51,010 nt of DNA, taken from assembly GCA_026392215.1 (NCBI GenBank), contig JAPLCN010000144.1, forward strand, positions 1-51,010, read 5' to 3'. The notes under the pieces are model-generated. The model did not search any database. It worked only from the letters and a program-made list of their open reading frames with translations, and was not told the origin of the DNA. This document shows positions 47,708 through 51,010 of this stretch, piece after piece. Both the position numbers and the translations under genes were made by a program. Position 1 is the first letter of the stretch, and each line of letters begins with the position of its first letter. The stretch is from Actinomycetota bacterium (GTDB lineage Bacteria; Actinomycetota; Humimicrobiia; Humimicrobiales; Humimicrobiaceae).

Positions 47708-47787
47708 CGGGGTGTAGCGCAGCCTTGGTTTAGCGCACCTGCTTTGGGAGCAGGGGGTCGGAGGTTCAAATCCTCTCACCCCGACCA
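47708..47787 (+). tRNA. tRNA-Pro (TGG)
   Basis: CGGGGTG...CACCCCGACCA cloverleaf, anticodon loop TTTGGGA. Confidence 0.93.
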
Positions 47788-48014
47788 GTACTTTGAAAGT
47801 AAAAGTTAGCTTTGATTGGAGTTTAAATACGCCGGTGGCATATTTAAACAAAAGGATTTGAATGGACGGACTGAAGGCGGCAGCCGAAGGAGTCCGCGGC
47901 TCTGCAGCGAGCGATAGCGAGACGAAAGACCAAATCCTCTCACCCCGACCAGTACTTTGAAAGTAAAAGTTAGCTTTGGTTGGAGTTTAAATACGCCTGT
48001 GGCATATTTAAACA
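47767..48014 (+). repeat. tRNA-3'-end-linked tandem element at tRNA-Pro (164-bp period)
   Basis: 84 bp 47767-47850 repeated at 47931-48014 with two mismatches; palindromic core 47853-47938 between. Confidence 0.9.
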
Positions 48015-48117
48015 CTAAGCCCTTTAGTTAATTCCCCTTTTTAAGTTTTTTATATTATTTGTATCAATAATAATTACCATAAAATATACCATAAAAAAAT
48101 ATTGATATTTAGCAATA

Positions 48118-48363
48118 GTGACAATACTGCCGATTACATCATTAAAACCTGGAAGAAAAATATATCCCAATGAAGTTTTAATTGAAAAAGATGAGAATAA
48201 AAATACCGGTCTTTCAATTGATTCCATTATTATGGCTCACCAGATTAGAACTGTTTTTAGAACTGTTTCAAAAAATAGACTAAAAAGAAATATCGGAAGT
48301 ATTGATGGTATGGAAATCATGGAAGAAGTCAATGAAGCTTTAAGGATTCATTTGAATTTATAA
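48118..48363 (+). pseudogene. 5'-truncated MazF/PemK-type toxin remnant
   Basis: VTILPITSLKPGRKIYPNEVLIEKDENKNTGLSIDSIIMAHQIRTV...IGSIDGMEIMEEVNEALRIHLNL; in-frame stop at 48103 and no typical N-terminus. Confidence 0.6.
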
Positions 48364-48599
48364 GAATTTCTGTTTTATGTAATTTATATGATTTTTTTAC
48401 CTCCCAAATTATTTTAATAGCAGGACTTGAAGTTTCCAGGTTTTTTGTATCCAAGCTATTAAAGAATTGATTGGCTATTGATTATTTTTAATTTTTATAT
48501 AAAATTTATTATGCAAATTAGATGGATAACTGTTAAAATAACTTGCTACTCTGTATGCAAGCTTTAAAGGGCTATTATTTGCAGGCATTTTGTATTCAA

Positions 48600-48676
48600 G
48601 CGGGAATAGCTCAGCTGGCTAGAGCGAAAGCCTTCCAAGCTTTAGGTCGCGGGTTCGAATCCCGTTTCCCGCTCCA
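48600..48676 (+). tRNA. tRNA-Gly (TCC)
   Basis: GCGGGAA...TTCCCGCTCCA; anticodon loop CTTCCAA. Confidence 0.93.
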
Positions 48677-48756
48677 TTTTTTTAAAATGATTCATTTTTT
48701 ATGCTGATTATTCTGGTTTATTAAAAAAATTATTAAAATTTCAGGAGAAAGATAAA

Positions 48757-49953
48757 ATGAGTAGAAAAATAAGATTATTAATAATTTTTACTGTTATTTT
48801 ATGTTTGTCTTTTACTTTTATTCCTAACAATATATATGCAGCTACAAAAACCCAGGCGACTGATTTTGTAACAAGATTTTATACACATATTCTGGAAAGA
48901 AATCCTGATGCTGCAGGCCTTGATAGCCATGTAAAACAAATATTAAAAAAACAGATTACCGGGGCTCAACTTGCATATAATTTTGTGTTCAGTGCAGAGT
49001 TTTCTGCAAAAAATAAGAGTAATGAAGATTATTTAAAGATTCTTTTCAGGGCTTGCTTTAACAGGGAAGCTGATTCTGCCTCTTATGGCAACTGGCTGAA
49101 TTTATTAAACAAGGGCTATTCCCGCCAGTATGTGCTGGCAGGTTTTGTAAATGCGGATGAATTTAAAAACCTTTGCGGCAGCTATGGCGTAAAGGCAGGA
49201 AGCCTTGACGGGGGATCGATTCCTCAAATAACCGCAACTCAAATACCTATAATAGAATTGCACGGGATTGAAAATAGTCCAATGGGAAGATATGAAATTA
49301 GTGCCGGAGCTTTTGATTATATGTGCGGCACTTTAAAAAATATGGGATATGAAACAATCACACTCATTGATTTATATAATCATTTTGCAAAAGGCACAAA
49401 ACTGCCTGCTAAACCGGTTATTATTACAGCTGATGATGGTTATCAAAGCATGTATACTACTGCATTCCCAATCCTTAAAAAATATAAATACAAAATGACT
49501 GTTTTTTTAATTACAAGCTTTATTGGTGATAATGAAAAAACAAGAAGATTAAATGATTTTGACAGCGGTATGGAAAATATACCGCAAAGGGCGATGCTGA
49601 CATGGCCGGAAATCGGACAGATGAGTAAGTATGGCTTGGAATTTCAATCTCATTCATGGGGCCACACTATAATGAGCAATATTCCTATAGACAGGGCAAA
49701 ATTTGAACTTATTCAGTCAAAGCATGATATAGAACTGCATACTGGGAAGCCTGTTATATTTATTGCATGGCCTCACGGGGCAAGTTCAGATGAAGTAATT
49801 TCATTATTGCCACAAGTCGGTTATGTCGGGGCATTAAATGCATCTGGCGGCGTTCAAAGTCTGACGTCAATTGATTTAACCAGATTAAACAGAGTTGAGA
49901 TTGTTTCAGGGATTCCTCCCCAGGCTTATGCAGAAGTTTTAAATCTGCACTAA
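48757..49953 (+). CDS. Secreted DUF4214-like plus polysaccharide deacetylase (NodB-like) protein
   Basis: Signal peptide; DFVTRFYTHILERNPDAAGLDSHV; PVIITADDGYQSMYTTAFPILKKYKYKMTVFLI; FQSHSWGH. Confidence 0.85.
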   Translation: MSRKIRLLIIFTVILCLSFTFIPNNIYAATKTQATDFVTRFYTHILERNPDAAGLDSHVKQILKKQITGAQLAYNFVFSAEFSAKNKSNEDYLKILFRACFNREADSASYGNWLNLLNKGYSRQYVLAGFVNADEFKNLCGSYGVKAGSLDGGSIPQITATQIPIIELHGIENSPMGRYEISAGAFDYMCGTLKNMGYETITLIDLYNHFAKGTKLPAKPVIITADDGYQSMYTTAFPILKKYKYKMTVFLITSFIGDNEKTRRLNDFDSGMENIPQRAMLTWPEIGQMSKYGLEFQSHSWGHTIMSNIPIDRAKFELIQSKHDIELHTGKPVIFIAWPHGASSDEVISLLPQVGYVGALNASGGVQSLTSIDLTRLNRVEIVSGIPPQAYAEVLNLH

Positions 49954-50129
49954 ATTAAATGATATCGTTTTTTTAAATTCTTTTTCTAAATTCTTATTGA
50001 CTTGCATATTAATATTTTTTAAAGTATTATTTCGTTGCAATTAATTCAGAATAGTTGTCGGATGCTGTTAATTTTTTTATACACTGATTTTGTTATAATG
50101 AGTTAATTTGAATAGTATTAAATTAATAT

Positions 50130-50206
50130 GCGCTTGTAGCTCAGCTGGATAGAGCTACGGACTTCTAATCCGTAGGTCGGGGGTTCGAATCCCTCCAAGC
50201 GCACCA
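50130..50206 (+). tRNA. tRNA-Arg (TCT)
   Basis: GCGCTTG...CAAGCGCACCA; anticodon loop CTTCTAA. Confidence 0.93.
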
Positions 50207-50527
50207 TTGAACTTTGATAATTTATTTGCAACTTTAGATAAGAGTTTAAATCTGCCGGTGGCTGATTTAAACAAAGGGATTCGAATGGACGGAGCGAAGG
50301 CGACAGCCGAGTGAGTCCGCGGCTACGTAAGCGAGCGATAGCGAGACGAAAGACCGAATCCCTCCAAGCGCACCATGATACTTTGGTTTTAAGTTTTAAA
50401 ACTTTGAATGGACGGAGCGAAGGCGACAGCCGAGTGAGTCCGCGGCTCTGCAGCGAGCGATAGCGAGACGAAAGACCGAATCCCTCCAAGCGCACCAAGA
50501 TACTTTGGTTTTAAGTTTCAAAACTTT
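50186..50527 (+). repeat. tRNA-3'-end-linked element array at tRNA-Arg(TCT): two cores, three tRNA 3' ends
   Basis: CGAATCCCTCCAAGCGCACCA at 50186-50206, 50355-50375 and 50477-50497; cores ~50276-50362 and ~50406-50484. Confidence 0.9.
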
Positions 50528-50565
50528 TTGCTAAGCCGTTAGAATACTAATGGCAAAGGAATTTT

Positions 50566-50642
50566 GGTGAGAATAGCTCAGTTGGTAGAGCGCAGGTCTG
50601 TGGCACCTGATGTCGCGGGTTCGAGCCCCGTTTCTCACCCCA
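50566..50642 (+). tRNA. tRNA-His (GTG)
   Basis: GGTGAGAA...TTCTCACCCCA; anticodon loop CTGTGGC. Confidence 0.92.
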
Positions 50643-50739
50643 TTTTTTTATTATTATCTTGTTTTTAATGATAAGGATTTAAAATATTAAATCTTATTTA
50701 ACAAATAAATGTTTACTCTTTGTAGTAGAAAAACAACTT

Positions 50740-50816
50740 GCGCCTGTAGCTCAGCTGGATAGAGCGACGGACTTCGAATCCGAAGGCCGGGGGTTCGAAT
50801 CCCTCCAGGCGTGCCA
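50740..50816 (+). tRNA. tRNA-Arg (TCG)
   Basis: GCGCCTG...CAGGCGTGCCA; anticodon loop CTTCGAA. Confidence 0.93.
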
Positions 50817-51010
50817 AACACTTTAAAGTTTAAAGAATAACTTTTGATTAGAGTTTAAATATGCCTGTGGCTTATTTAAACAAAGGGATTCGAAAGGACG
50901 GAGTGAAGCGAAGCGTAATGAGTCCGCGTCTCTGCAGCGAACGATAGTGAGACGAAAGAACGAATCCCTCCAGGCGTGCCAAACACTTTAAAGTTTAAAG
51001 AATAACTTTT
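50796..51010 (+). repeat. tRNA-3'-end-linked tandem element at tRNA-Arg(TCG) (165-bp period, cut by window end)
   Basis: CGAATCCCTCCAGGCGTGCCA repeated at 50961-50981; following 29 bp 50817-50845 repeated identically at 50982-51010. Confidence 0.9.

Follow-up and report, generated by a model that had tools for sequence, protein, structure and literature searches.

The RtT RNA of Escherichia coli has so far been treated as a one-locus oddity of the tyrT operon. Its units in strain K-12 (Rfam family RF00391, 133-138 bits) consist of GGGGAAGGAT, a core and AATCCTTCCCCCACCACCA; the left arm (L) is complementary to tRNA-Tyr positions 59-68, and the closing segment (R') copies tRNA-Tyr positions 58-76. 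RefSeq annotates RttR as a non-coding RNA with its 3' end at the CCA of R', and the record of another strain describes it as 'processed from tyrT transcript'; a search of the openly available literature for the mechanism of RtT found no paper. Also comparable are the islands integrated in tRNA genes (tDNA islands), for which a crossover in the T-loop and displaced tRNA 3' fragments are typical (PMC4383910, PMC1762012). This article examines an element in a 51,010-nt stretch of DNA (the window; contig JAPLCN010000144.1, positions 1 to 51,010 of the forward strand, assembly GCA_026392215.1) from an actinomycetotal bacterium of the family Humimicrobiaceae (class Humimicrobiia). It probably represents a family of RtT-like elements that are non-coding and mobile and are placed directly behind tRNA and transfer-messenger RNA (tmRNA) genes, and in which L, paired with R', would close a structured RNA derived from the tRNA transcript.

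The same order of parts is found at all three window tRNAs, for Pro(TGG), Arg(TCT) and Arg(TCG): the tRNA with its CCA end, a linker of ~45 nt, a hairpin (HP1), L, a core of ~68 nt and R' (Table 1). The unit (linker, HP1, L and core) amounts to ~145-150 nt of gene-free DNA between the host tRNA and R', and HP1 in the window has the pattern GTTTAAA-n-ATGCC...GGCAT-n-TTTAAAC. An earlier note on this DNA had described the core as bounded by inverted arms tailored to the resident tRNA, and the arm pairs lie where it placed them: AGGATTTG (47853-47860) with CAAATCCT (47931-47938) at tRNA-Pro, and GGGATTCG with CGAATCCC both at tRNA-Arg(TCT) (50276-50283 with 50355-50362) and at tRNA-Arg(TCG) (50885-50892 with 50961-50968). 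Its identification of the right arm as duplicated tRNA T-loop/T-stem is borne out, as this arm begins a 21-nt copy of tRNA nucleotides 56-76, the original of which we call R. An arm of 10 nt was not upheld: the arm is 7-8 nt long and the following 'AA' is constant core sequence, kept even at a tRNA-Asn with the T-loop TCCGAG.

The dependence of L on its host tRNA extends well beyond the window. In a non-redundant set of one element per genome and tRNA (n = 103), L is the exact complement of its own R' over 7 nt in 96 elements, by means of 12 different 7-mers, whereas shuffling R' within each genome gives an expectation of 42.6 exact matches and a maximum of 57 in 5000 shuffles; chance is excluded as the source of the matching. 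The left arm, which the earlier note took to be the reverse complement of the right arm and to change with the tRNA, does so across 12-13 arm types, the covariation with the local T-arm that it proposed to look for is present, and a fixed GGGATTCG everywhere, which would have made the Pro case coincidental, is not what the elements show. Pairing of L with R' stands at 95-100% for tRNA positions 56-62 and 81% for position 63 and falls to chance level from 64, the complementarity ending at 62/63 in all copies. The resulting helix (P1) is 96.9% paired and nearly all Watson-Crick, with 2 G-U and 4 A-C among 480 cells. T-loop position 59, which is free to vary in tRNA, occurs as all four Watson-Crick types (43 UA, 10 CG, 4 AU and 2 GC), and position 57 as CG (38) and UA (22).

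Close relatives among the units have linker, HP1 and core in common and arms one base apart. The units at tRNA-Arg(ACG) and tRNA-Ser(GGA) of genome G025 are 94% identical in the linker and 96% in the core, with arms GGGATTCG and GGGGTTCG that each fit their own tRNA. Other arms have been left un-rematched to the local tRNA and form G-U wobbles or mismatches with it (L018, L071, L167, the TGGATTCG arms and L007); such pairs are GGGATTTG at CGAATCCC (G-U), GGGATTCG at CGAATCCT, TGGATTCG at CGAATCCC and GGGAGTCG at CGAATCCC.

The core is a conserved, covarying and RNA-like fold with helices kept by compensatory change. Its parts are P2 (GGAC/GTCC), an internal loop of tandem G-A in which pairs covary, P2b, which is variable, and P3b, again with tandem G-A; a long-range pair (X-Y) links GCG[G/T]CTC with AAAGA[C/A] (GC in 36 cases, UA in 22, other in 2). 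Double changes are seen in 14 of 24 pairs, against 9.0 in shuffles, and the structure-wide covariation score is 0.306, against 0.128 +/- 0.007 for shuffles, with 0 of 500 shuffles reaching it. Outside P1, G-U (36) outnumbers A-C (9), and the pairs of HP1 over 86 elements comprise 920 Watson-Crick, 14 G-U and 1 A-C; this excess favours RNA, or a single strand, with the sense of the tRNA. No Rfam family fits the window element, the sole match being CRISPR-DR30 at chance level (E=6.6), and no known self-cleaving ribozyme or riboswitch family was matched in it.

Among the 35 genomes of the family, 24 carry the element, with 1-18 model matches each, and the hosts include more than 20 tRNA isoacceptors as well as tmRNA. 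The source genome contains 13 core matches by BLAST, at tRNAs for Pro (3 isoacceptors), Arg (3), Ser, Tyr, Asn and Leu. None of 5 genomes from other families of the class was positive, and the 18 positives in a survey of 296 genomes of the phylum all fall within the family. An exact-core-pattern scan of GTDB genomes gave 65 stretches, all from metagenome-assembled genomes (MAGs) labelled Actinomycetota/Actinobacteria, Ca. Humimicrobium/Hydromicrobium or unclassified bacterium; the pattern was absent from viral contigs, BLAST gave no match in phages or plasmids, and literature searches did not find the Humimicrobiia element described. Nearly all extracted cores (131/133) lie in the tRNA sense and either follow a tRNA or tmRNA or adjoin a contig edge or N run. 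tmRNA serves as host in several genomes, not in the window, and at the tmRNA loci L056, L091, L097, L103, L108 and L113 L fits the T-arm of the tmRNA (e.g., GGGAGTCG with CGACTCCC). Contigs of MAGs often end inside tandem arrays of the element (e.g., window 50982-51010, L004 and L057), and copy numbers are therefore underestimates. Fragments like the 3' end of tRNA-Gln (GGTTCGAATCCTCTCTCCCCAG), 60-120 nt behind unrelated Glu, Leu and Arg tRNAs (L229, L231, L232, L277 and L250), are a different, unexplained repeat.

Gain, loss and spread of units are evident from empty and occupied orthologous sites, from tandem arrays and from the near-identical units in different tRNAs. The tRNA-Ser(GGA) site is empty in G017 (L271) and occupied in G013 (L099), with the flank identical at 69/72 positions directly after CCA/A76, and the tRNA-Trp site is empty in G000 (L219) and occupied in G022 (L045), with a flank identity of 218/250; a partial R' scar is present at Gln-CTG in G000. 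Leu-GAG and Glu-CTC were set aside as further empty-site pairs, their flank alignments being unconvincing. Exact tandem arrays have a unit of ~160-200 nt, and many copies are decayed.

R and R' are 96-100% identical at each of the 21 positions, and differences between them mostly reflect decay of R'. Except in tandem arrays, the end of the copy usually falls at A76 or a few bases from it. The two segments co-change between related species, also outside P1 (e.g., Asp-GTC in G012/G017), so that some homogenising process acts as well. Since related units differ in R, the simplest view is that the duplicated segment comes from the target tRNA and does not travel with the unit. Among tRNAs for different amino acids in genus g6, those with a common T-arm have the more similar linkers (permutation p 0.0035), which supports a spread restricted to tRNAs of one T-arm type in that genus; genus g1 gives no such support (p 0.28). 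Linkers at Leu-GAG are almost identical between L026 (genus g10) and L094 (genus g6), which suggests horizontal transfer or strong constraint.

The explanation that we consider probable is that the unit would be read through from the tRNA promoter and would fold as RNA, with P1 formed between L and the initial 7-8 nt of R' and enclosing P2 and P3. The RNA, ending in a tRNA-like CCA, would be cut from the tRNA transcript and its CCA end matured as in tRNA. The match of L to the local tRNA would follow from a need for P1, the 3' strand of which is dictated by the host tRNA: units able to pair their L with the target T-arm would persist, and mismatches would be repaired by compensatory change, possibly aided by template switching. 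Selection on P1 is thus the presumed cause of the matching. The units are presumably mobile, and the copy of nucleotides 56-76 would be acquired from the target tRNA at each new site and not be carried by the element.

Several points weigh against this explanation. Transcription and processing as RNA in this organism are predictions from DNA sequence, and single-sequence folding is only modestly better than that of shuffles (z -1.6, -3.3 and -2.3). Template copying, too, would give a strictly Watson-Crick P1 in which G-U intermediates are all but missing, the conservation of R' outside P1 is unexplained by helix selection alone, and at L093 L fits the tRNA rather than R'. The element has no match in 11/35 family genomes, and no mobility gene is linked to it.

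One alternative, which we consider unlikely, is a non-mobile RNA that serves regulation or processing in tRNA operons to the host's benefit, descends essentially vertically and is homogenised by gene conversion. Linkers of related genomes are alignable at the same tRNA (71%, against 54% between different tRNAs) while R' stays identical, cores are equally alike between the tRNAs of one genome (0.836) and between orthologues (0.832), and the RtT of E. coli is itself an annotated RNA; against these stand the empty orthologous sites in close relatives, the many decayed copies and a patchy presence, with 11 of the 35 genomes lacking the element and a copy number of 1-18. A bolder version of the preferred explanation makes L a guide: pairing of L with R' would not only fold the RNA but also direct it to new tRNA or tmRNA genes whose T-arm matches, where it would insert after A76 and before a newly made copy of nucleotides 56-76. 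This version is, in our estimate, also unlikely; if true, it would define a gene-free class of mobile RNA, related as a sibling to E. coli RtT, whose members home in on tRNA genes through complementarity to the T-arm.

Decidedly unlikely is the proposal that L is written from the local tRNA at insertion or replication, by self-primed or foldback copying or by quasi-palindrome template switching, so that the complementarity is mutational and unselected. The purity of P1 and the co-change of R, R' and L in related elements would follow from it, and template switching is documented as making, repairing and maintaining the arms of RNA hairpins (PMC8794818). A copied arm should vary in length and should always fit the local tRNA, whereas the complement stops at 62/63 in every copy, un-rematched arms persist and near-identical units differ by one arm base; in addition, the X-Y pair and P2/P3 covary in the absence of any tRNA template. 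The earlier note had offered functional base pairing and foldback copying side by side: the former is supported by the covarying arm types, position 59 and the covariation of other core helices, and the latter is not supported. Template-switch correction of the inverted repeat may nevertheless contribute to maintaining the L match.

Very doubtful is a minimal integrative element moved by a tyrosine recombinase in trans with a crossover in the T-loop, in which R would be carried, R' displaced and the L-core-R' hairpin would be a folded attachment site. The T-loop breakpoint and displaced tRNA 3' fragment are the normal signature of tDNA islands, and tandem arrays occur, as this proposal expects; tyrosine recombinase homologues are present in 35/35 family genomes and, being found in all, are uninformative. 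The same linker and core occur at tRNAs with different R and L, where a carried R would break the tRNA, units of ~150 bp hold no gene, and the G-U bias and tandem G-A motifs indicate RNA. An RNA intermediate is weakly favoured over site-specific DNA recombination.

Retrotransposition in trans by the group II intron reverse transcriptases of these genomes is the least probable alternative: RVT_1 is found in 12/24 element-bearing and 0/11 element-free genomes (a count that ignores phylogeny), Y1 transposase lacks such a link (10/24 against 4/11) and the 56-76 copy ends at a mature RNA 3' end, CCA, but half of the bearing genomes show no reverse transcriptase and the association is weak because several of the enzymes belong to group II introns behind terminator hairpins and the one near an element is a passenger inside an L arm. 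This last intron, with its reverse transcriptase and one internal TAG, occupies positions 686-2720 of L295 (G028 contig 126), directly after HP1 of a tRNA-Pro element and inside the L arm (AGGATT^TG); the idea that the enzyme beside this core marks an autonomous version of the element was accordingly rejected.

Features of the window are collected in Table 1, in which window units were scored with a covariance model (CM R1) made from the elements of relatives. The fourth core (50407-50476), behind tRNA-Arg(TCT), has AAACTTTG on its left side, which does not match, and its score, with broken arm pairs, is 73.8 bits. It looks like a unit that has lost its linker end, HP1 and L; the 31 nt preceding it resemble linker, and it is therefore regarded as a deletion derivative, the alternative of a newborn insertion with native-flank duplication having been rejected. 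Between tRNA-Gly and tRNA-Arg lies an open reading frame of 398 aa (48757-49953), which by eye we take to resemble a DUF4214 and polysaccharide deacetylase protein.

Table 1. Element parts and host tRNA genes in the window.
Feature	Position	Strand	Detail	Basis
Host tRNA-Pro(TGG)	47708..47787	+	R = last 21 nt, 47767-47787 (tRNA 56-76), duplicated segment	ARAGORN, sequence
Linker and HP1 behind tRNA-Pro	47788..47852	+	HP1 47821-47849 = GTTTAAATACGCCGGTGGCATATTTAAAC	sequence
Left arm L at tRNA-Pro	47853..47860	+	AGGATTTG, complementary to tRNA 56-63	
Core at tRNA-Pro	47861..47930	+	P2, P3 with tandem G-A motifs, X-Y covarying pair; CM R1 98.2 bits	
R' at tRNA-Pro	47931..47951	+	tRNA-Pro 56-76 copy, ends in CCA	sequence
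Second linker and HP1 behind tRNA-Pro	47952..48013	+	no core, remnant tandem unit	sequence
Host tRNA-Arg(TCT)	50130..50206	+	R = 50186-50206	ARAGORN, sequence
Linker and HP1 behind tRNA-Arg(TCT)	50207..50275	+	HP1 = 50244-50272	sequence
Left arm L at tRNA-Arg(TCT)	50276..50283	+	GGGATTCG	
Core at tRNA-Arg(TCT)	50284..50354	+	CM R1 88.1 bits	
R' at tRNA-Arg(TCT)	50355..50375	+	tRNA-Arg(TCT) 56-76 copy	sequence
Second tRNA-Arg(TCT) unit	50376..50476	+	linker remnant 50376-50406, core 50407-50476; no HP1, no matching L	
Third tRNA-Arg(TCT) 56-76 copy	50477..50497	+		sequence
Host tRNA-Arg(TCG)	50740..50816	+	R = 50796-50816	ARAGORN, sequence
Linker and HP1 behind tRNA-Arg(TCG)	50817..50884	+	HP1 = 50853-50881	sequence
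Left arm L at tRNA-Arg(TCG)	50885..50892	+	GGGATTCG	
Core at tRNA-Arg(TCG)	50893..50960	+	CM R1 98.2 bits	
R' at tRNA-Arg(TCG)	50961..50981	+	tRNA-Arg(TCG) 56-76 copy	sequence
Further tandem unit begins (linker copy) behind tRNA-Arg(TCG)	50982..51010	+	identical to 50817-50845; contig ends within unit	

Among known systems, tDNA islands in tRNA and tmRNA genes (the T-loop class, e.g., phage Ms6) share with the element a T-loop breakpoint and a duplicated tRNA 3' end, the displaced fragment marking the far end in both. In contrast to these islands, the element is ~150 bp long, gene-free and structured, has an inverted arm matched to its locus and occupies many tRNAs per genome. No integrase or cargo gene is present in the units (~150 nt), and where an island carries a 3' end that restores its tRNA, related units hold different R at different tRNAs, a pattern that speaks against such a carried end. 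Group II introns resemble the element in pairing a short segment with the insertion flank (EBS/IBS) and, for class IIC behind terminator hairpins, in a hairpin just upstream; the element differs in lacking domains I-VI and an open reading frame, no Rfam group II domain or intron-encoded reverse transcriptase was matched inside the window unit, and real group II introns exist separately in these genomes. The ends of IS200/IS605 and REP/RAYT-type palindromes likewise combine short hairpins with flanking guide-like sequence, but Y1 transposase does not co-occur with the element and the copies of the element are confined to tRNA and tmRNA 3' ends.

The closest likeness is to RtT. Both lie behind a tRNA in tandem units (~170 nt in RtT), each unit terminated by a duplicate of the tRNA 3' end that includes CCA and closed by a helix of L with the start of that duplicate; in both, R' runs from the T-loop to CCA (19 nt, positions 58-76, in RtT), and the core has a hairpin of the form CGAGC-loop-GCGAG. 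RtT also occurs at tRNA-Lys with L re-matched: a Providencia unit (97.5 bits) has R' ATCCTGCACGACCCACCA, and its L, GTGCAGG, pairs with ATCCTGCAC of R'. The predicted duplexes of own pairs at Tyr and Lys are strong (-17.8 and -13.5 kcal/mol) and those of crossed pairs weak (-5.5 and -2.1), and RtT therefore has the same tailoring, as judged from two tRNA species. At lysV of E. coli, R' is kept and there is no exact L; this RtT-like copy (L316 865-990) has lost its L arm, and the flanking duplication also covers the lysV terminator.

The two differ in core sequence, in the tRNA positions used by P1 (59-68 in RtT, 56-63 here) and in the length of R' (19 against 21 nt), and the Humimicrobiia element uses many tRNAs and tmRNA within a genome and has the extra hairpin HP1 before L. 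The Rfam model of RtT (match threshold 45 bits) gave no match in the window at the gathering score, nor in 47780-48030 up to E=10, and the model of the new element does not find RtT; the element, having no RtT-model score, is therefore placed in a new, RtT-like family. By this comparison it would work like RtT, membership in RtT itself not being shown. The same design in a second phylum, at more than 20 tRNA types and tmRNA, points to tRNA-tailored RNA elements as a general class, in which an orphan RNA of E. coli is joined with a large, cleanly covarying family. That family constitutes a natural covariation experiment for the structure of RtT, and the function and origin of the repeats become testable in E. 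coli.

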